Source: a virus. From it: a stretch of DNA of 28,924 nucleotides. Within the stretch, counting starts at the first letter, position 1. The number at the start of each line of letters is the position of its first letter. Where the stretch lies: positions 1 to 28,924 of the IMG/VR virus record IMGVR_UViG_3300035034_003813, one strand, 5' to 3'. Made by a program: the position numbers and the translations under genes. Shown one piece after another: positions 416 to 17,963 of this stretch. The notes under the pieces were generated by a model. The model was not told the DNA's origin. It made no database searches and saw only the letters and a list, made by a program, of their open reading frames with translations.

Positions 416-775
416 ATGCTCAAAACCCAAGTTACAAAAATTTTCAAATTCGAAGCTGGTCATCAATTAGAAAACAGTTTCACGAAAGAATGTGAATCCC
501 CACACGGACATAGTTATAAAGTGGAAGTAACTTTTGAAGGAAGGGTCTATACTGACACAGGAATGGTGATTGATTTTGGAGAACTGAAACAAATTGTAAA
601 ACCTATTATTGATGAATATGATCATAAATTTTTTACCAAAGAAAATTATGGCAAAAATCCCACAGCCGAAAATATGGCAAGTGATATTTTCTGGAAAATT
701 AGAGAAAAAACATTAATGATAAAACAAGTGAAACTATGGGAAACAGATACAAGTTATGTTATAGTTAGGTGTTAA
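416..775 (+). CDS. queD: 6-carboxy-5,6,7,8-tetrahydropterin synthase (QueD)
   Basis: QueD converts 7,8-dihydroneopterin triphosphate to 6-carboxytetrahydropterin, the second step of 7-deazaguanine synthesis. At 119 aa it has the family's usual length. The zinc histidines are seen in FEAGH (His16) and PHGH (His30, His32), with the catalytic Cys26 four residues before His30. The MVIDFGELK strand-helix follows, then the Asp69-His70 dyad, PTAENMA and a C-terminal LWET substrate-binding Glu. The start has a good AAGGAG site. Its role is set by the neighbours: queE, folE and dpdA follow on the same strand, so it most likely feeds DNA modification rather than host tRNA queuosine. The stop is followed directly by a perfect 10-bp hairpin. 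Confidence 0.95.
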   Translation: MLKTQVTKIFKFEAGHQLENSFTKECESPHGHSYKVEVTFEGRVYTDTGMVIDFGELKQIVKPIIDEYDHKFFTKENYGKNPTAENMASDIFWKIREKTLMIKQVKLWETDTSYVIVRC

Positions 776-949: not shown

Positions 950-1600
950 ATGAAAATTACAGAAATATTTGAATCAATTCACGGGGAAGTAAATGGTCAT
1001 CACCAAGGAAGAATCTGCACATTTATAAGAACCTCTGGATGTAATTTGAGGTGTTATTATTGTGATACTCCCGGAACACAAAATCCTATTGGAGAAAATA
1101 CTACTTTTGATTCTATTTTGGATAAAATTAAATACTATAACAATCAATACCTTTGTATAACAGGAGGAGAACCTTTACTTAATAAATCACAAATGGTAGA
1201 TTTATTATCATTACTTCATTTCCAAAATTATAAAATTTCAGTAGAAACAAATGGAACTATAGATATTACTCCTTTTTACCGATATGTAGAAAGTTTTGTT
1301 GTTGATTACAAAGTGGGAGTGGATAACTATAAACCCTTTTTAAAAAATTATATAAATTTACGAAACACTGATGTTATAAAATTTGTAGTGGGTTCTGAAA
1401 AGGACATAATAGAAATTGTAAACAATTTTTCTTTTTTAGAACACCAATATAAAAATAAAACACAAAAACCTGTTATCTCTTTTTCTCCTATTATATCTGA
1501 AACCTTCACACCAAAAATATTATTTACTGGCCTAAAGAATAACGGAATCCATAACGTATTGATATCTGTTCAAATACATAAGTATATAGGATTTAATTGA
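950..1600 (+). CDS. queE: 7-carboxy-7-deazaguanine synthase, radical SAM (QueE)
   Basis: QueE is a radical-SAM enzyme that contracts 6-carboxytetrahydropterin to 7-carboxy-7-deazaguanine. The N-terminus reads EIFESIHGE, then SGCNLRCYYCDT with the 4Fe-4S cysteines Cys31, Cys35 and Cys38 in CxxxCxxC form, and the SAM-binding GGEP motif at residues 72-75. At 216 aa it is a normal compact QueE. The ATG follows an AAAAGG site. Its C-terminus (LISVQIHKYIGFN) is encoded a second time about 124 bases downstream, beyond an HNH-like remnant, so the 3' end has been rebuilt by an insertion or recombination event. With queD and folE it completes the route to CDG. Confidence 0.95.
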   Translation: MKITEIFESIHGEVNGHHQGRICTFIRTSGCNLRCYYCDTPGTQNPIGENTTFDSILDKIKYYNNQYLCITGGEPLLNKSQMVDLLSLLHFQNYKISVETNGTIDITPFYRYVESFVVDYKVGVDNYKPFLKNYINLRNTDVIKFVVGSEKDIIEIVNNFSFLEHQYKNKTQKPVISFSPIISETFTPKILFTGLKNNGIHNVLISVQIHKYIGFN

Positions 1601-1835: not shown

Positions 1836-2486
1836 ATGTCAGAAGAAAAGAACATCACAGAAGAATCCATCAAAGTAGCCATTAAAGATTTTAATGCCCA
1901 TTTTAAATCAAAGGAAAAAGAAGAGATTTCCATTGAAGGAATTGAAGGCGTTGAAGCTCAGATTCAGGTATTTCTTGTGCCTGTTTTGGAAGAAATTGAA
2001 AACGGTACTGCTGCTGAACTTCCGGAAAAAGTAATTGAACTTTATAATCAGATAGCAGAAGACGAAGAAGAACCTGAAGAACCTAAAAAGAAAAAGAAAG
2101 AACCCAAAGAAAAGAAACCCAGAAAAGAAATTGAAAAAGATGCTTACGGTGTATCCATGAACAGTGGAGCACACAAACTCAATCTGATGCTGGAAAAAGG
2201 AGCTTCAATTGCTGATATGATTGATGGAGTAGGTACTACTCGCAGTAGAGTTCAATCACACATGGCTTCTTTGAAAACCAAGGGTTTCTTTATTAATAAT
2301 ATTGATGGGGTTTTTACTGTTATGTCTGAAGAACCCCCGGAAAGACTTAAAAAAGAAAAAGTTGACGGTGCCAAAGAAGGAGAAAAAACTGAAAAGAAAA
2401 AAGCTCCTGCTAAAAAATCATCTTCCAAAAAATCATCTTCCAAAAAATCATCTTCCAAAAAATCATCTTCCAAAAAAGGAAAATAA
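1836..2486 (+). CDS. Putative winged-helix DNA-binding protein with a histone-like Lys/Ser tail
   Basis: This 216-aa protein has an acidic helical N-terminus (about 1-80), a charged linker rich in EEPEEPKKKKKEPKEKK, then a compact domain at about 103-165 (AYGVSMNSGAHKLNLMLEKG, ASIADMIDGV, SRVQSHMASLKTKGFF, FTVMSEE) with the helix-turn-helix plus beta-wing pattern of small phage DNA-binding domains. The C-terminus is a lysine/serine tail with KKSSS repeated four times, like histone H1 or bacterial H1-like tails. It has its own consensus promoter and a strong AAGGAG site, so it may be abundant. Nucleoid-type DNA binding or regulation is inferred; the family was not identified by name. The folE start follows 4 bases after its stop. 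Confidence 0.65.
   Translation: MSEEKNITEESIKVAIKDFNAHFKSKEKEEISIEGIEGVEAQIQVFLVPVLEEIENGTAAELPEKVIELYNQIAEDEEEPEEPKKKKKEPKEKKPRKEIEKDAYGVSMNSGAHKLNLMLEKGASIADMIDGVGTTRSRVQSHMASLKTKGFFINNIDGVFTVMSEEPPERLKKEKVDGAKEGEKTEKKKAPAKKSSSKKSSSKKSSSKKSSSKKGK
2412..2471. repeat. 15-bp tandem repeat, four exact copies, encoding KKSSS
   Basis: The unit AAAAAATCATCTTCC occurs four times in perfect register and is followed by a partial fifth A-tract. It codes for the Lys/Ser tail. Exact nucleotide identity among copies points to recent expansion by slippage, so copy number may vary between relatives. Confidence 0.9.
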
Positions 2487-2490
2487 AACT

Positions 2491-3063
2491 GTGACGGAAA
2501 TTCAAAAAGATTTCCATCACATTATATCTGAGGGATTGGGGCTCGATATGTCGGACCCCAATCTCAAAGACACTCCTAAGAGATTGGAAAAAATGTATAA
2601 AGATTTTGTCAAAAATACTGACAAACCTTTTAAAGGACTTACTGTTTTTCCAAACAGTGATGGATATGATCAAATAATTCTATTGGATACCATTCATTTC
2701 ACTTCTATATGTTCTCATCATTTTATACCTTTTGCTGGTAAAGCCTGGTTTGCTTATATTCCGGATGAATTATTATTAGGGGCCTCTAAACCGGCAAGAG
2801 TGATAGAACATTATGCAGCAAGACCTCAACTACAAGAAAACCTTTGTCAACAGGTTGTTAAATTTATTAGCAAACAACTTAAACCATTAGGAATTATGCT
2901 TGTAATGAGAGCAATACACGGTTGTATGTCTTGTCGTGGAATTTATCAATATCACGGAGCCGGAATGATGACTTCTTCTATTACCGGTATTTTCAAAGAA
3001 AACAAAGCACCTCATGATGAAGTTATGGATTTGATAAAAATGTCAATAATGATGGAAAAATGA
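2491..3063 (+). CDS. folE: GTP cyclohydrolase I (FolE)
   Basis: FolE turns GTP into 7,8-dihydroneopterin triphosphate, the entry step for both folate and 7-deazaguanines. The zinc-site motif SICSHHFIPF (Cys74, His76, His77) and the second ligand motif HGCMSCRG (Cys144) are intact, along with IEHYAARPQLQE. I place the start at the GTG at 2491, ten bases after AAGGA and 4 bases after the preceding stop. This gives 190 aa and keeps the N-terminal TEIQ helix. The frame stays open upstream to a TTG at 2302, but that part overlaps the previous gene out of frame and encodes only its repeat shadow. The stop overlaps the next ATG, so translation is coupled to the QueD-like gene. Confidence 0.93.
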   Translation: MTEIQKDFHHIISEGLGLDMSDPNLKDTPKRLEKMYKDFVKNTDKPFKGLTVFPNSDGYDQIILLDTIHFTSICSHHFIPFAGKAWFAYIPDELLLGASKPARVIEHYAARPQLQENLCQQVVKFISKQLKPLGIMLVMRAIHGCMSCRGIYQYHGAGMMTSSITGIFKENKAPHDEVMDLIKMSIMMEK

Positions 3064-3398
3064 AAACAATGAATATAATTATTAATACTCGATTTTCAGC
3101 TATTCATTTTTGGCCTGATTGTCCTATAAAGGAAGTTGCTTATCTTAGAAATCCTCATAGACATGAATTTCATGTTCAAGTAAAAGCTCCAGTAAAACAT
3201 GGTGATAGGGATATTGAATTTATCCAATTAAAAAACAAGATTCAACTGTGGATTTCTAAGAATTGGGATAAACAAAATCTTGAAAACAAATCCTGTGAAA
3301 ATATGTGTTCTCTATTACTGTTTGTTTTTCCTGAATTATCTTATGTTCGGGTTTTGGAAGACGGAGAAAATGGCGCAGAAATAGAGAAACCTAAATAA
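3060..3398 (+). CDS. Divergent QueD/PTPS-fold protein, second copy in the cluster
   Basis: This 112-aa protein follows the QueD plan: FSAIH (His16) and PHRHEFH (His33, His35) reproduce the three zinc histidines, DIEFIQLKN matches the IDFGELK element, KSCENM stands where PTAENM normally is, and the C-terminal strand reads VRVLEDGENGAEI, keeping the substrate-type Glu. The Asp-His catalytic dyad is not visible, and the only nearby Cys (Cys21) is 12 residues before the first His of HxH instead of 4. It is therefore unlikely to be a plain duplicate of QueD. It may act on another pterin or deazaguanine intermediate, or be structural. It overlaps the folE stop by ATGA. Confidence 0.7.
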   Translation: MKTMNIIINTRFSAIHFWPDCPIKEVAYLRNPHRHEFHVQVKAPVKHGDRDIEFIQLKNKIQLWISKNWDKQNLENKSCENMCSLLLFVFPELSYVRVLEDGENGAEIEKPK

Positions 3399-3898: not shown

Positions 3899-4330
3899 AT
3901 GATTAAAAATTATGTGTTCACGGGACAAGAAGCAGAAGGACCTCAAAAAGGTATTCTAACTCTTTTTATTCCTAAAAACGCAATAAACAGAACATCTTTT
4001 TTTGAGTTTGCTAAAAAATACAATATAACCAGATTGTATTTTGGAGCTGGGAATGATCGAGGAATTAATCCTGATTTAATTGGACATCTTAAATGGATTC
4101 CTAAGCATTTTACTATTTTTTTAGAAATTTTAAAAGGAGATGATTTAAAATTAATCCCTCCCTCTTTTTTAAAAAGAACCAATATTATTTATGTTATTCA
4201 AGATTATTTAGAAGTTAATCCTTCTGTTTTTAAGATTGAAAGTAAAAAAGAAGTTAATTGGTACGAACTACAAAAACCCTTTACAAACTCACTTGACTCA
4301 AAACTATATGAATGGGACCAGGACTTATGA
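3899..4330 (+). CDS. Hypothetical protein in the modification operon, 143 aa
   Basis: I do not recognise this protein. It is rich in aromatic and basic residues. An N-terminal beta-type segment (KGILTLFIPKNAI) is followed by RLYFGAGNDRGINPDLI and by HFTIFLEILKG. The C-terminus (EVNWYELQKPF, YEWDQDL) looks like an exposed tail. No metal site or signal peptide is visible. Its stop overlaps the start of the glycosyltransferase gene (ATGA), which itself lies 7 bases before dpdA, so the three are probably translated together. A role linked to base modification is inferred only from this coupling. Confidence 0.75.
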   Translation: MIKNYVFTGQEAEGPQKGILTLFIPKNAINRTSFFEFAKKYNITRLYFGAGNDRGINPDLIGHLKWIPKHFTIFLEILKGDDLKLIPPSFLKRTNIIYVIQDYLEVNPSVFKIESKKEVNWYELQKPFTNSLDSKLYEWDQDL

Positions 4331-5475
4331 GAAAATTATTTTATCTTCCTTTAGAATCGTACAAAGAAAGGTATACTTGCCAATTATCAGCCCCTGAAAC
4401 AGGATGGTTAGAAAGAAATTGGATGAAAGAAGGTGTAAATTATACCAGAGTAGAAGGAGACAGCAACTTAGCTTCTTCTCTTATTACTGATGGTGTTGTT
4501 CTTGATTCAACAAATAGAGGAATGTGGTGTTGTTCTCAAATTAAAAACCTATTAAGTCATTTGAAGGCAGGCCATATCACCTCAGACGATGTTATTTATT
4601 TTGATGATTTTTGGACTCCAGGGTTTTCTGCTTTGCCATATGCGTTTCACTTAACAGGTATTCAACCAAGAATGTACGCCATGCTACATGCCCAAAGTAT
4701 TGACAAATTTGATTTCACATATGATATGCGCCATTGGATGAGACATTTTGAAAAAGGTACTGCTAAATGTTTAAGTGGAATTTTTGTTACTTCAACTTGT
4801 CTTCGTGATCTTTGTCTTTATCATAATGTTGGTCATCCTGGTAATGTTTTCTTAACTGGTTTGCCTTATAATAGTGAAGAAGTAGAATCCCATTTCCCTA
4901 AACACGTACCTCTTAAAGCAGATAATCAAGTAATTTATTCAAGCAGATGGGACAAAGAAAAAGATCCTGGATTTTTTATGGATGTTATAGAGAGATGCAT
5001 CCAATTGAAAATAGATGTGAATTTCCTTATTACTACTTCTTCAGAAAAATTAAGAAGTAATGACTCTGCCCTTCTTGAAAGATTACAAAATTTAATCAAT
5101 AAATATCCTTATGTAGTTAAATTAAGAGAAAATTGTTCTAAGGAAGAATATTATACCAATTTATTAGAATCTAAGATACAAATGAATACCGCAGATCAAG
5201 ATTTTGTAAGTTGGACTCTTTTAGAAGCCACCACTTGTGGATGTAGACCTTTATATCCTAATTTTTTAAGTTTCCCAGAAGCATTGAACTATAACTATGA
5301 TTACATGTATGAAAAGAATGATGTGACAAGTGCGGTTTTAGCCTTAAAAAAGGCATTAAGTGCTGCTATATCAGATTATTCACACATTTACAAACCATTT
5401 GATAATTCTTGGAAAAGAATGCTCAGTATTATGCAAGGTGATTTTAAATACTATGTAGATAACCCTTTATTTTAG
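4327..5475 (+). CDS. GT-B (GT4-like) glycosyltransferase adjacent to dpdA
   Basis: This 382-aa protein has a GT-B layout. The N-terminal half has LFYLPLESYKERYTCQLS and VIYFDDFWTPG. The C-terminal donor-binding half has VIYSSRWDKEKDPGFFMDVI (about 202-221), YYTNLLESKIQMNTADQDF and the signature LLEATTCGCRPLYPNFLSFPE (about 298-318). From memory, RW..-KDP..FF and LEA..CGC.PL.P..L..PE are also the pattern of the GTDC1/QTMAN queuosine mannosyltransferases. The start is set at 4327 (ATGA overlap with a GGAC site just upstream); an in-frame ATG at 4312 has no better site. Placement directly before dpdA suggests it decorates the deazaguanine base, its nucleoside or the DNA; the substrate is not established. 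Other GT4 enzymes remain possible. Confidence 0.75.
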   Translation: MRKLFYLPLESYKERYTCQLSAPETGWLERNWMKEGVNYTRVEGDSNLASSLITDGVVLDSTNRGMWCCSQIKNLLSHLKAGHITSDDVIYFDDFWTPGFSALPYAFHLTGIQPRMYAMLHAQSIDKFDFTYDMRHWMRHFEKGTAKCLSGIFVTSTCLRDLCLYHNVGHPGNVFLTGLPYNSEEVESHFPKHVPLKADNQVIYSSRWDKEKDPGFFMDVIERCIQLKIDVNFLITTSSEKLRSNDSALLERLQNLINKYPYVVKLRENCSKEEYYTNLLESKIQMNTADQDFVSWTLLEATTCGCRPLYPNFLSFPEALNYNYDYMYEKNDVTSAVLALKKALSAAISDYSHIYKPFDNSWKRMLSIMQGDFKYYVDNPLF

Positions 5476-5482
5476 GATTAAA

Positions 5483-7375
5483 ATGAGAAGTATTTTTGTT
5501 GATTCAGGTGCTCACTCTCTATATACCAAATATGTTATCAATCGACAACATGTGAATGGTTATTCTTTTTATGAATCTGACGCATTTTGGAATTATGTTG
5601 ATCAATATGCAGAATGGGTAAAGCAAAGACTTCATTTGATTGATGTTTATGTAAATGTGGATGTTATTTTCAATCCTGAATTAAGTTGGAAAACCCTCAA
5701 ATATTTAGAAAATACTCACGACTTAAATCCATTACCTGTTATTCATGCCAATACTGATAAAAAATGGTTATACAAACATCTTGATAATTATGAATACTTA
5801 GGAATAGGAGGCGTAGGTCAAGAGAAAACAGTAAAAGAATTTCTTCCTTTTGGAGATATGGTATTTAATGCTATTACTGACACAAAAGGATATCCTACAC
5901 ATAAAACACATGGTTTTGCTATGACTTCTAATTTTCTATTAAATCGTTTTCCTTGGTATTGCATGACCGAAGAAGACCATGAAGTTCTTACTAAAAAAGG
6001 TTGGAAAAAGAGAAGCAAACTACAGATAGGAGAAGAAATATTAGCATTTGATGAAGGAGTAACCAAATGGGAACCTATTTTAGATATTCCAGTATTCCCA
6101 GTAAAAAATGAAAAAATAACCCATATTGAAAACCGAAATATTGATGCTCATATTTCAAATAATCATAGGTGGATAACAACCGACCATAATAAAAGAGGAT
6201 TAAAATGGAGATTTAAAGAAACTGATTATTTAACAAAAAGTGATGCTATTCCAAGGGTAGGTAAAGATTATAAATTTCCAACTGAAAAAAAATATTCAGA
6301 TGAGCAAGTTAAATTATTAGGATGGATTTGGACAGATGGGTCTATGAGAGACAGATCTAAAAAAGGATGCAAATTCAACAGCATAATTATATACCAATCT
6401 AAAACAGCTAATCCTAAAAAATGTAAAGAAATTGAAACCCTTTTAAATAAAAGTAAAGAAAAATACTGTATTTGTAAAGGGGAATGTGGAATGAACAATT
6501 ATGAGATATATGGTAATATTTCTAAATGGATATGGTCTCTAGCTCCTGATAAAAAAATACCTTTACCTTTTATTTTTGATTTAACAAAAGACCAATTAAA
6601 AATGTTTATAGATGCTTCTATAAAAGGAGATGGAACTTTAACAAAATTAATTAGAAGAAAAGGAATAGAAATTACAGTAAATAGATCTGTTAAAAAAGAA
6701 AATTTAGAAATTTTACGCATAGGTTATTTATTATTAGGTATTCCTACTTCTATTTTTTACGGTAAAAATAATAAAAAAAGTCTGCGTACTTCCTCAGTAG
6801 ATTATATCTATAATAATCAAACAAGACATTGGATTGAGAACTATACTGGTAATTTGTGGTGTGTAAAAGTTAAAAGTGGAGCTTTTTTTACAAGATGTAA
6901 TGAAAAAATTTATGTAACAGGAAATTCAGTTGATTCCACAGCTTGGGCCCACTTCGGAAGATTTGGAGCTATATTGATACCTAAGTTAAAAAACGGAAAA
7001 TATGATTACAAAACTACACCTATTATTCTTTTTATTTCTGATCGGTCAACAAAAAAAGATTTAGCAGGAAAACATTTAGATAATTTTTCCAAAATTGAAA
7101 GAAAAATGATCCTAAAATACATTAAAGATAAGGGATATATTTTAGGAAAATCTGAATACAAAAAAGTTCCATTAGATTATAAAGTTACTCCAGGTAAAGA
7201 ATTTAGAATTTCAAAACACAAAAACCATACACTAATCGAAAACTGTATTGAAAAAGGTGTAAAAAATAACAACCTAATGAGGGATTTTTTCAATGCAGAA
7301 TACTACAAAGATTTAGCTAATTCTTTACCTGAATGGCCTTGGAAGTTCAAACACAAAGAAAGGACATTATTTTAA
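5483..7375 (+). CDS. dpdA: DNA 7-deazaguanine transglycosylase DpdA, intein-interrupted
   Basis: Phage DpdA swaps guanine in DNA for a 7-deazaguanine base and belongs to the TGT superfamily. The N-extein (1-159) has FVDSGAHSLYTK, DVYVNVDVIFNPE, LNPLPVIHA, YEYLGIGGVG and HGFAMTSNFLLNRFPWY. The C-extein (482-630) begins SVDSTAWAHFGRFGA. Joined, they restore the PWY-SVDST-W-GRFG run that I associate with phage TGT/DpdA proteins, giving a 308-aa mature enzyme. Residues 160-481 are an intein. The AGGA site lies close before the ATG. Its partners queD, queE and folE lie upstream. Its substrate may be CDG, since no queC is seen. The assignment of the family is strong; the exact base is inferred. Confidence 0.85.
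   Translation: MRSIFVDSGAHSLYTKYVINRQHVNGYSFYESDAFWNYVDQYAEWVKQRLHLIDVYVNVDVIFNPELSWKTLKYLENTHDLNPLPVIHANTDKKWLYKHLDNYEYLGIGGVGQEKTVKEFLPFGDMVFNAITDTKGYPTHKTHGFAMTSNFLLNRFPWYCMTEEDHEVLTKKGWKKRSKLQIGEEILAFDEGVTKWEPILDIPVFPVKNEKITHIENRNIDAHISNNHRWITTDHNKRGLKWRFKETDYLTKSDAIPRVGKDYKFPTEKKYSDEQVKLLGWIWTDGSMRDRSKKGCKFNSIIIYQSKTANPKKCKEIETLLNKSKEKYCICKGECGMNNYEIYGNISKWIWSLAPDKKIPLPFIFDLTKDQLKMFIDASIKGDGTLTKLIRRKGIEITVNRSVKKENLEILRIGYLLLGIPTSIFYGKNNKKSLRTSSVDYIYNNQTRHWIENYTGNLWCVKVKSGAFFTRCNEKIYVTGNSVDSTAWAHFGRFGAILIPKLKNGKYDYKTTPIILFISDRSTKKDLAGKHLDNFSKIERKMILKYIKDKGYILGKSEYKKVPLDYKVTPGKEFRISKHKNHTLIENCIEKGVKNNNLMRDFFNAEYYKDLANSLPEWPWKFKHKERTLF
5960..6925 (+). mobile_element. Intein with LAGLIDADG endonuclease inside DpdA (322 aa)
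   Basis: The element starts at Cys160 (CMTEEDHEVLTKKGWK, block A) and ends with VYVTG-type block F/G (EKIYVTGN) at Asn481, followed by Ser482 as the +1 nucleophile. Block B is seen as HISNNHRW. The two LAGLIDADG helices are LLGWIWTDGS (278-287) and FIDASIKGDGT (375-385), so the homing endonuclease looks intact. The penultimate residue is Gly rather than the usual His, a variant also found in active inteins. The insertion sits at the most conserved extein motif (WY/SVDS), as is typical of inteins. Confidence 0.9.
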
Positions 7376-14799: not shown

Positions 14800-17226
14800 A
14801 TGGCCAAAAAGATAAAAATCAAACCTATTAAAAAAATTATAAGTACTGCTGATTCTTTTGAAGCCATGATGGATGAAGAAGAGGTTGTTGATCCTGAATT
14901 TATTGATGTTAATAATTTAGTTCCAATGGGATCAACAACCGGTCATCTTGAATGTTCTGGTAATTGGCAAGGAGCTTTTAACTTAGGAAAAATGATTAAT
15001 TTAATAGGTGATTCTCACGCAGGTAAATGTATTAAAAATTCATATATTTTAACTTCAAAAGGAATGGAGTTAATAGATGATATAGGTAAAAATAAAAAAG
15101 AGGGGATAAGCCCTTATATTGAAACTTTATCTATAGATAAAAACCGAAAAGACGTAACCTCACTTTTTTGGAAAGAAAAAGTCTCTAAGACAATAAAAAT
15201 TATCACTAAAAAAGGATATTCTATTGAAGGAACTCTAGATCATCCTATTATGATAATGAATAAAAATTTCCAATTCAAAATGCGTAAATTACAAGATATT
15301 AAAAAAGACGATTGTGCTATAATAGCAAGAGGTACTAATAATTTTACGGAAGAATATTTTCCTATTAAAAATATAAATTTATCTGAAACTAATGTAAAGA
15401 AAGCAAATATTCCTAAATTTATAAACGAATCTTTTGCTAGATTATTAGGTTATATTGTAGCAGATGGAAATATATACCCTAATACTATTTTTCTTTCTAC
15501 TACTAAATCTTATATTAGGGAAGATTTAAGCACAATAGCATCTAATTTAAATATATCTTTAAAACAACAATCTATAGGAGGAAAACATTTAGCTACTGTT
15601 ATTGCTAATTTATTTGATAATCCTGATAAATTTACAGCAAGGTATAAATTTGTTCCAGAATGTATTTTAAAATCACCTAAAAATATTCAAACTTCTTTTT
15701 TAAAAGCTTTAATAGATTGTGATGGGTATGGAACTAAAACACAAATAAGTTATTATACTGCATCGAAACAATTAGCAAAACAAGTCCATTTAATGCTCTT
15801 AAATTTAGGTATAATTTCTACTTTATCTTTTAAAAATGGTGCTTTTGACGGAGTAAATTATCATGATCATATTTATTGGGCTGTAAATATTTATGGAGAT
15901 GAACTAATTCTTTATAATAATTTAATCGGAAGTTCTAAATATAATGAATTTTTAAAACGAAAAAATACTCAAAGAAATAGTGATTATGATTCAATACCAA
16001 ATTTAATTAAAAAAATGAAAGGAGATATTGAAAAATTAAGGAAAAAAGTAGGATGGTCTAAAAACGGAAAATGTACAAATGATCCAAGACGTTTTCCGAG
16101 AATAAAATTTGCAAATACTGAAAATGGCTCAAAAAAAATGATTAAACGATTTATTGAATTATTTTTAGAATGGCCTATTGATTTATCTTTTTATAACACA
16201 ATTCTTTCATCAGGATATTGTTTTGATTCAATTTCGATTATTGAAGAAAAGATAAATCAAACAATAGTTTATGATGTTCATATTCCAAATTCACATTTAT
16301 TTTGGAGTAATGGGTTTATAAGTCATAATACCTTATTAGCTTTTACTATATTTGCGGAATGTAATAAGTTAAAAAGATTTGATGATTACCTTTTTAAATA
16401 TGATGATGTAGAAGCAGCAAATGAGTTTAATATTTCCCTTCTGTTTGGTTCACAATGCGCTAATAGGATAGATCAAACTGAACGAAGCAGGACTATTGAA
16501 GATTTTAATGATCGAATTGCTTCTCTTTTGGATGAAGGAGAACCTTTTATTTATGTGCTTGATTCATTCGATGGATTAACTAGTGAAGCTGCTATTAAAA
16601 AAGATATCGAAAATCGTAAAAAAAGAGAAAAAGGAAATGAAACAACAGGTGATTTTGGTGACGGCAAAGCTAAAATCTTTTCAAGATTCTGCTCTATGAG
16701 AATACAAGAATTAAAAGATACTAATTCCCTTCTTATTATTATTTCACAAACAAGAGATAACATAGGTTTCGGTGCTCAATTTACTCCAAAAACAAGATCA
16801 GGAGGAAGGGCATTAAAATTTTACTCAGCTTTTGAAATATGGTTAGCATGTCAGAAAAAAGAGAAAAAGGGCAAAAGAACCATCATTACTAATGTTCAAG
16901 GTAAAATAACTAAAAACAAGTTAACTGGTAAGCATGGTGAATTTTACTTTCCTATTCTTAATGATTACGGAATAGATAACATAAAGTCTTGTATCAATTT
17001 TTTGATGGATGAAGGGGATTGGACAGGAACTAAAAAAGCAGTAAACACAAAAGGTTTCTTAGAGTTAAAAGATTCTAAAGGTAAAAAGAAACACCCATCT
17101 GTCAAAGAACTTATTGATTATATTGAAGAGGAAAATAAAGAAGTCAGTTTGTATAAACTGTGCAAAAAAGCATATGATGATGTAATGGAAAGTTTAAAAC
17201 CAGAACGTAAACCAAAATATGAATAA
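14800..17226 (+). CDS. RecA/UvsX-family recombinase, intein-interrupted
   Basis: The spliced product is about 374 aa. Walker A GDSHAGK (70-76) is split from its Thr (511) by a 434-residue intein. After it come TLLAFTIFAECNK, Walker B FIYVLDSFDGL, SLLIIISQTRDNIG and the L2/Gly-rich segment KTRSGGRALKFYSAFEIWL, as in UvsX and RecA. It catalyses strand exchange on DNA coated by the gp32-like protein. The N-terminus MAKKIKIKPIKK is basic and shared with two other genes here. TAAGGA precedes the ATG. No stop codons or frame breaks are seen, so splicing should give an active enzyme. Confidence 0.9.
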   Translation: MAKKIKIKPIKKIISTADSFEAMMDEEEVVDPEFIDVNNLVPMGSTTGHLECSGNWQGAFNLGKMINLIGDSHAGKCIKNSYILTSKGMELIDDIGKNKKEGISPYIETLSIDKNRKDVTSLFWKEKVSKTIKIITKKGYSIEGTLDHPIMIMNKNFQFKMRKLQDIKKDDCAIIARGTNNFTEEYFPIKNINLSETNVKKANIPKFINESFARLLGYIVADGNIYPNTIFLSTTKSYIREDLSTIASNLNISLKQQSIGGKHLATVIANLFDNPDKFTARYKFVPECILKSPKNIQTSFLKALIDCDGYGTKTQISYYTASKQLAKQVHLMLLNLGIISTLSFKNGAFDGVNYHDHIYWAVNIYGDELILYNNLIGSSKYNEFLKRKNTQRNSDYDSIPNLIKKMKGDIEKLRKKVGWSKNGKCTNDPRRFPRIKFANTENGSKKMIKRFIELFLEWPIDLSFYNTILSSGYCFDSISIIEEKINQTIVYDVHIPNSHLFWSNGFISHNTLLAFTIFAECNKLKRFDDYLFKYDDVEAANEFNISLLFGSQCANRIDQTERSRTIEDFNDRIASLLDEGEPFIYVLDSFDGLTSEAAIKKDIENRKKREKGNETTGDFGDGKAKIFSRFCSMRIQELKDTNSLLIIISQTRDNIGFGAQFTPKTRSGGRALKFYSAFEIWLACQKKEKKGKRTIITNVQGKITKNKLTGKHGEFYFPILNDYGIDNIKSCINFLMDEGDWTGTKKAVNTKGFLELKDSKGKKKHPSVKELIDYIEEENKEVSLYKLCKKAYDDVMESLKPERKPKYE
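15028..16329 (+). mobile_element. Intein with LAGLIDADG endonuclease inside the recombinase P-loop (434 aa)
   Basis: The intein begins at Cys77 (CIKNSYILTSKGMELI, block A) right after the P-loop Lys, has block B GTLDHPIMI, and ends NGFISHN (Ser508-His509-Asn510) before Thr511, a textbook His-Asn/Thr junction. Both endonuclease helices are present: LLGYIVADGN (215-224) and ALIDCDGYG (303-311). The insertion inside Walker A makes the unspliced protein ATPase-dead. P-loop insertion is a known hot spot for inteins in RecA-like and other ATPase genes. Confidence 0.93.
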
Positions 17227-17237
17227 GGAGATTTACC

Positions 17238-17963
17238 ATGGCGAAAAAAATCAAAACTATAACTTCGACAAAGGCAGACATTATTGATTTTGACCCTAAA
17301 CCTCGTATTAGAGTTTCTTTTTCAAAAACAATACAAGTTGGCGGAGAAGAATGGAACAAAGCAGAAGCCGGAATGGATTATTCGATTCCATCTTTAGAGC
17401 AGGCAGAAAAAACATTTGAAGAACTATGGGAACTTTGCGGTACTCAAGTAGAAAGTCTTTTAGGAGATTCACACGAGGATCCTGAAGATGATGATCCTGA
17501 AGATGATGATCCTGAAGAAGATGATCCTGAAGAAGATGAAGAAGAAGATGATCCTGAAGAAGATGAAGAAGAAGATGAAGAAGAAGATGATTCCGATGAA
17601 GATGAAGAAGAAGATGATTCCGATGAAGATGAAGAAGATGAAGAAGATGATCCTGAAGAAGAAGAAGAAGATGATCCTGAAGAAGATGAAGAAGATGAAG
17701 AAGAAGATGATCCTGAAGAAGAAGATGATTCCGATGAAGATGAAGAAGATGAAGAAGAAGATCCTGAAGAAGAAGAACTTTCTGAGGATGAAATTAATGA
17801 AATGTCTTCGAAGGAATTAAGAGAACTATGTGAAACAGCAGAAGGTTTAGAAGGTATAGACCACACACAAAAAATAAAAACTTTACGAAAAGAAATTATC
17901 GCCTGCCTTTTTGCTGAAGAGGAAGAAGATACTGACTGGGAAAACACAGACTGGGAAGAATAA
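17238..17963 (+). CDS. Extremely acidic Asp/Glu-repeat protein, 241 aa
   Basis: Residues 1-78 form a small basic-to-neutral domain (MAKKIKTITSTKAD, RIRVSFSKTIQVGGEEWNKA). Residues 79-180 are almost only Asp and Glu with regular Pro and Ser (DDPEED, DDSDEDEE). Residues 181-222 look like a SAP/HeH-type helix-extended-loop-helix (INEMSSKELRELCE, KIKTLRKEIIACLF). The tail is DTDWENTDWEE. The acidic block could mimic DNA or act as a chaperone for DNA-binding proteins. It directly follows the recombinase and ends at a strong terminator. The family was not recognised; SAP-like is a cautious reading. Confidence 0.75.
   Translation: MAKKIKTITSTKADIIDFDPKPRIRVSFSKTIQVGGEEWNKAEAGMDYSIPSLEQAEKTFEELWELCGTQVESLLGDSHEDPEDDDPEDDDPEEDDPEEDEEEDDPEEDEEEDEEEDDSDEDEEEDDSDEDEEDEEDDPEEEEEDDPEEDEEDEEEDDPEEEDDSDEDEEDEEEDPEEEELSEDEINEMSSKELRELCETAEGLEGIDHTQKIKTLRKEIIACLFAEEEEDTDWENTDWEE
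17475..17785. repeat. Low-complexity GAT/GAA repeat coding the acidic block
   Basis: Imperfect units such as GATGATCCTGAAGAAGAT and GATGATTCCGATGAAGAT recur throughout. They generate long false ORFs in other frames, including a Ser-rich one on the - strand. Repeat number is expected to vary between relatives by slippage. Confidence 0.9.

Follow-up and report, generated by a model that had tools for sequence, protein, structure and literature searches.

Sugar-modified bases in phage DNA are known on pyrimidines. Modification of phage DNA with 7-deazaguanine has also been described, and involves DpdA together with FolE, QueD, QueE and QueC, for example in phages 9g, CAjan and nt-1 (PMC6884629). 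Furthermore, the 7-deazaguanine nucleoside queuosine is mannosylated by the glycosyltransferase QTMAN, an activity established for the animal enzyme and not for the bacterial homologues used in this study (PMC12518689, PMC11705514). Here, the virus record IMGVR_UViG_3300035034_003813 was analysed over its full 28,924 bases (the window). It encodes, at positions 4327-5475, a glycosyltransferase (abbreviated GT) that lies within a cluster of 7-deazaguanine genes and next to dpdA. It is likely that GT transfers a sugar to the 7-deazaguanine base, or to DNA carrying 7-deazaguanine, and these phages probably build an undescribed, sugar-decorated DNA letter. Deazaguanine in phage DNA is known; what is probably new is the predicted sugar on the deazaguanine base.

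Linkage of GT to deazaguanine genes

GT relatives were collected on GT similarity alone, duplicates were removed, and loci with at least 4 kb on either side were treated as full-flank. In this survey, which a preliminary description of the DNA had proposed, every full-flank viral locus carried a DpdA/TGT-like gene (54/54); in 36 loci this gene was of the type found in the window, and in the other 18 it was of a second type, marked by a DSGGFQ-like motif. The suggestion that GT relatives without a window-type dpdA lack a transglycosylase was rejected, given that this second TGT-like family takes its place. The other genes of the 54 loci were PTPS2, encoding a divergent QueD-like protein (50), queE (49), folE (46), queD (44) and s143, encoding a small protein (28). 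The TGT gene was no more than 200 bp from GT in 68 of the 108 loci that have one, and when 58 loci including isolates were grouped at 70% identity, 43 of the 44 clusters contained a TGT gene.

Four divergent GT queries against 50,697 phage records together recovered a closed set of 20 records that fall into six groups (the PA5oct group, X1, BUCT-ZZ01, ACP17, Phosso and PhiXhv/Ep032), each of which was linked to deazaguanine genes in the one representative examined per group. QueE, detectable in 285 of the 50,697 records (0.56%, a lower bound), lies within the GT cluster in the first five groups. PhiXhv is the most distant group, and DpdA was not recognised there. Its GT is one gene away from Gat-QueC, with a PIG-L deacetylase between them, and QueE is found elsewhere in the genome. 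The Gat-QueC gene of PhiXhv-12 (L010:9648-11171) is annotated as a fructose-6-phosphate aminotransferase; it matches PF06508 (E 2.3e-49) and has a glutamine amidotransferase domain. The view that the PhiXhv GT relative is unrelated to deazaguanine, which its neighbour's annotation as GlmS had suggested, was therefore rejected. The same neighbourhood contains a GFO/IDH/MocA oxidoreductase, with GNAT and Leu/Phe-transferase-like genes upstream, and the PhiXhv-12 cluster possibly serves a more elaborate base modification. Overall, the linkage of GT to deazaguanine genes holds across 20-58% identity, in all 54 full-flank viral loci and all six isolate groups.

The GT family is essentially phage-only. 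A cellular origin was rejected, as only 9 loci were found in 84,980 species genomes, all on contigs of metagenome-assembled genomes and several of them 3-7 kb long. GT relatives on such contigs labelled archaeal or bacterial (L132-L140) probably represent viral contamination or fragments of prophages. A plasmid search did not find the family, and the Xanthomonas X1 GT, used as a query against viral sequences, gave no matches.

In the window, the first 7.4 kb encode, all on the plus strand, queD, queE, folE, PTPS2, a 114-residue open reading frame (ORF), s143, GT and dpdA, in this order.

416-775, plus strand: QueD (6-carboxytetrahydropterin synthase), 119 residues; PF01242 E 1.8e-33; phrog_2389
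950-1600, plus strand: QueE (7-carboxy-7-deazaguanine synthase), 216 residues; Radical_SAM E 7.6e-16; phrog_2076, QueE-like, E 2.6e-34
2302-3063, plus strand: FolE (GTP cyclohydrolase I); PF01227 E 1.6e-46 over residues 68-245 of the ORF
3060-3398, plus strand: PTPS2, divergent QueD-like protein (T-fold), 112 residues; phrog_17812 E 1.3e-22
3899-4330, plus strand: s143, small protein of 143 residues, conserved in roughly half the GT loci
4327-5475, plus strand: GT, 382 residues, GT-B fold, GT4-like, with a QTMAN-related C-half; assigned by family profile, fold and profile-profile alignment
5483-7375, plus strand: DpdA (DNA guanine transglycosylase), 630 residues including an intein; phrog_887, queuine tRNA-ribosyltransferase, E 1.5e-28
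5960-6925, plus strand: intein in dpdA, about 322 residues, with a Cys start (WY/CMTEED) and the end VTGN/SVDST; recognised against intein-free homologues

The true start of folE is uncertain, with the conserved domain beginning at about 2500, and folE overlaps PTPS2 by 4 bp. The ATG of GT overlaps the stop codon of s143 by 4 bp (an in-frame ATG at 4312 is a possible alternative start), and 7 bp (5476-5482) separate GT from dpdA. The preliminary description thus correctly read a GT-B enzyme whose gene stops 7 bp short of dpdA, and its phrase "fused by context to dpdA" is apt in the sense of adjacency.

The dpdA exteins are 5483-5959 and 6926-7375. The intein adjoins a conserved VDST motif and has a weak LAGLIDADG_3 match (E 0.2); relatives are intein-free and of about 293 residues (e.g., L012:4849-5730, E 6.6e-41). 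The transglycosylase accompanying GT is DpdA-type and not a canonical TGT, as PF01702 barely matches. A second intein of about 434 residues (15028-16329) lies within the Walker A motif (GDSHAGK) of a RecA-like gene (14800-17226), downstream of which is an acidic ORF (17238-17963) with long Asp/Glu/Pro-rich repeats (DDPEEDEEE...). The small protein s143 carries a GxE(V/A)EG motif; considered as a possible degenerate QueE, it has an N-terminus weakly like QueE (hhalign probability 84.8, 78 residues), and a fold search returned no significant match, hence none in support of this likeness.

Fold, family and relation to QTMAN

The GT ORF is far beyond chance, given that a closely related contig (L001) encodes an identical GT and more than 100 viral contigs carry relatives that are 33-58% identical; 587 relatives were found among the viral stretches scanned. 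The window GT alone matched no glycosyltransferase model in Pfam, PHROG or NCBIfam, and none in a single-sequence PDB search, so a family profile was needed for its assignment. The family alignment comprises 68 sequences (the window GT and 67 viral relatives), of which 48 match PF00534 (Glycos_transf_1; best E 1.1e-9), the window member by itself being unmatched. An AlphaFold2 model (pLDDT 95, pTM 0.92) has a GT-B fold with two Rossmann-like domains. The best PDB matches by Foldseek were MeT1 (E 1e-13), then MshA and BshA, which are retaining GT4 enzymes. In a viral fold library, the nearest two proteins, one unnamed and the other the ACP17 relative, stood ten orders of magnitude above other viral glycosyltransferases. 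Twenty-four alignment columns are invariant across the family. They include three in the N-half (E10, R15 and Y16) and four of donor-site type in the C-half (R207, K212 and, in a D292-x7-E300 motif, D292 and E300). The GT-B assignment made earlier is borne out, and by fold and family the gene product is a phage-specific retaining GT-B (GT4-like) enzyme with a predicted activity.

The preliminary description had also likened GT to QTMAN/GTDC1, quoting the motifs RWDKEKDPGFF, LLEATTCGCRPLYPNFL and SFPE, all of which are present. Bacterial QTMAN proteins were collected with PF12038, and the same 199 genomes were searched with the phage GT profile. QTMAN supplied 30 of the 31 top-ranked cellular matches (E 1e-16 to 1e-8), in a comparison that is strong and not exhaustive, as the GT4 enzymes scored after the pre-filter were not all those of all genomes. 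One phage-like match ranked above these 31, and the sole non-QTMAN among them comes from a short contig, the QTMAN_N match of its genome being located on a different one. Eight of the genomes held 164 PF00534 matches, and in each of the eight the phage profile scored QTMAN highest; the generic PF00534 model ranks QTMAN low. Profile-profile alignment of the phage GT with QTMAN (hhalign) gave a probability of 98.7 and E 3.7e-16, mostly over the C-half.

QTMAN_N (PF12038) was not detected in the window, nor in any of the 68 GT members at E 0.01. Because of this, and because the relation lies mainly in the C-terminal donor half, the phage GT is not itself a QTMAN; judged by these profiles, it and the QTMAN donor half share ancestry. 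The proposed likeness is supported mainly for the C-half. The best PDB matches are other GT4 enzymes (MeT1, MshA and BshA), an outcome that the preliminary description had named as refuting its reading. No solved QTMAN structure turned up in the PDB searches with GT, so this structural comparison cannot decide the matter.

Acceptor, sugar and rival explanations

In the proposed route, GTP would be converted to 7-carboxy-7-deazaguanine (CDG) by FolE, QueD and QueE, according to their family-level annotation, and PTPS2 would then turn CDG into a CDG-derived base. GT would move a sugar from a nucleotide-sugar either onto the free base before DpdA acts or onto DNA afterwards. The likely role of such a bulky base would be to shield DNA from restriction and other DNA-recognising defences, as glucosylation does in T4. 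The activity, the sugar, the attachment atom, the order of steps relative to DpdA and the protective role are all predictions of this scheme.

The preliminary description proposed that a sugar may be placed on the deazaguanine that DpdA inserts, or on its precursor. This agrees with the presence of deazaguanine and DpdA genes with GT in every testable viral locus. A queuosine-like acceptor is unlikely: QueC was absent from all 32 GT-bearing viral records, many of them 60-220 kb long, and the acceptor is therefore probably CDG-derived and not queuosine. In 12 phage records, QueC was above the cut-off only in PhiXhv (Gat-QueC), the one such case among the named GT-bearing isolates, and as a partial match in the GT-less Vibrio D479; X1 has a sub-threshold partial match. 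QueC, the preQ0 branch, is missing from some accepted members of DpdA systems, and it could be supplied by the host. The phage-encoded route apparently ends at CDG, after which PTPS2 comes in.

PTPS2 aligns with QueD (hhalign probability 96.9) and retains three zinc-type His residues (16, 33 and 35) and Glu 80 and 100, without the Cys and Asp-His of QueD; these are invariant or nearly so in the QueD alignment and are retained in the window QueD. Given this pattern of kept and lost residues, PTPS2 probably binds a similar ring and performs other chemistry. It probably acts on the QueE product. DpdL has reportedly been proposed as a CDG decarboxylase, which is not relied on here. A doubtful extension is that a widespread class of phages makes a sugar-hypermodified 7-deazaguanine by a route leaving the known pathway at CDG, with no preQ0, and that, if PTPS2 decarboxylates, the sugar sits on carbon 7 as a C-glycoside.

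The sugar may differ between lineages. In the L075/L080/L088 lineage, a nucleotidyltransferase gene shares a few bases with the start of GT, and the one scanned, from L075, is fused to a mannose-6-phosphate-isomerase cupin.

L075:7241-8008, L080:3507-4277 and L088:7238-8008: nucleotidyltransferase genes overlapping the GT start

An NDP-sugar epimerase is encoded at or just past the GT end in seven loci, and the PIG-L deacetylase of PhiXhv hints at an amino sugar there. A second glycosyltransferase-like gene in the same cluster (L087:4928-6292, with a weak GT4 match, and L007:12010-13353) might allow a second sugar.

Several observations weigh against a sugar on DNA-borne deazaguanine. Linkage alone cannot separate a base, DNA and a pathway intermediate as acceptors. 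PTPS2 and deazaguanine genes occur with no GT found nearby in Cellulophaga phiST and Chryseobacterium MA9V-3, so the PTPS2 step is independent of the sugar. If PTPS2 were a CDG decarboxylase, there would be no C7 substituent for an O-linked sugar. The usual E-x7-E is D292-x7-E300 in GT, an invariant Asp replacing the first Glu. In addition, no recognised nucleotide-sugar gene is present in the window, and a host nucleotide-sugar is therefore likely in its lineage. As a separate observation, the fetched regions of phiST (L123) and MA9V-3 (L124) encode PTPS2 with queD, queE and folE, and a nearby phrog_20335 gene of about 260 residues is a DpdA candidate.

Four other explanations were weighed, each disfavoured by linkage or conservation. 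The best placed, although improbable, is that GT modifies a host or phage surface polysaccharide, protein or lipid and lies near dpdA through clustering of DNA-modification and anti-host genes. Polysaccharide building is common among GT4 enzymes, such genes are frequent in phages, and clusters of glycosyltransferase and nucleotide-sugar genes in some jumbo phages have been read as polysaccharide synthesis (PMC7824862). However, a passenger would occur elsewhere too, rather than being deazaguanine-linked without exception, and in the window the GT start and s143 stop codons overlap.

Less probable still is a QTMAN-like enzyme that glycosylates queuosine or deazaguanine in tRNA and alters host translation. 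The profile relation to QTMAN and the place of DpdA within the TGT superfamily fit this explanation, whereas the absence of QueC from the 32 viral records, the DpdA-type rather than canonical TGT and the undetected QTMAN_N do not. Very unlikely, by a little more, is a pterin glycoside formed from the products of FolE and PTPS-like proteins, as by the tetrahydrobiopterin glucosyltransferase BGluT, instead of a modified DNA base. FolE and members of the PTPS family belong to the pterin enzymes, and PsBGluT (9v0l) was the seventh best PDB fold match, but QueE and DpdA, nearly always found with GT, and the Gat-QueC of PhiXhv have no role in making a pterin glycoside. Moreover, a sequence profile search of PDB at E 0.1 returned no BGluT, and QTMAN leads the cellular matches. 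Least credible of all is a protein that has lost sugar transfer and serves DpdA or PTPS2 as a binding or regulatory partner: the Asp in place of the first Glu and the close gene coupling would suit it, but the donor-site-type residues are invariant in all 68 sequences, and nucleotide-sugar genes lying against GT in some lineages argue for live transfer.

Comparison with known systems

Glycosylated deazaguanine was not described in the literature searched; this absence is weak, as the main specialist papers lay outside the search. Deazaguanine goes unmentioned in the papers on Paride and MIJ3, and the deazaguanine system of PA5oct was noted earlier (PMC7824862). If true, a glycosylated 7-deazaguanine would extend the sugar modification of phage DNA to purines, reuse the theme of sugar transfer to queuosine on DNA, and present a new obstacle for restriction and other defences that target DNA; a C-glycoside at carbon 7 would introduce chemistry of a new type to DNA. 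The family reaches cultured phages of Pseudomonas, Xanthomonas, Acidovorax, Sinorhizobium and Synechococcus, which makes the prediction directly testable.

MshA and BshA are among the best fold neighbours of GT in PDB, and PhiXhv pairs GT with a PIG-L deacetylase much as BshA is paired with BshB and MshA with MshB. However, these enzymes work in the synthesis of small thiols, their acceptor being inositol phosphate or malate, whereas the PhiXhv pair adjoins Gat-QueC. The T4 alpha- and beta-glucosyltransferases, none of which was among the GT sequence or fold matches listed, are likewise GT-B enzymes that place sugar on phage DNA, in a scheme where a base change is followed by glycosylation. 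Their acceptor differs, being a pyrimidine, 5-hydroxymethylcytosine, incorporated during replication.

QTMAN is the nearest cellular family by profile, shares the donor-half motifs RW-x2-(D/E)K-x-P-x-FF and EA-x3-GC-x-P...S(F/Y)PE, and acts on a 7-deazaguanine nucleoside (PMC12518689). In contrast, the phage GT has a phage-specific N-half with the invariant E10-R15-Y16, occurs in a DNA and not a tRNA context, and is found where no queuosine-type acceptor would be made, QueC being absent from the viral set. The described phage DpdA systems resemble the GT loci in carrying FolE, QueD, QueE and DpdA in one cluster, with guanine replacement in DNA expected, and differ in that the viral set is without QueC and adds PTPS2, GT and often s143.

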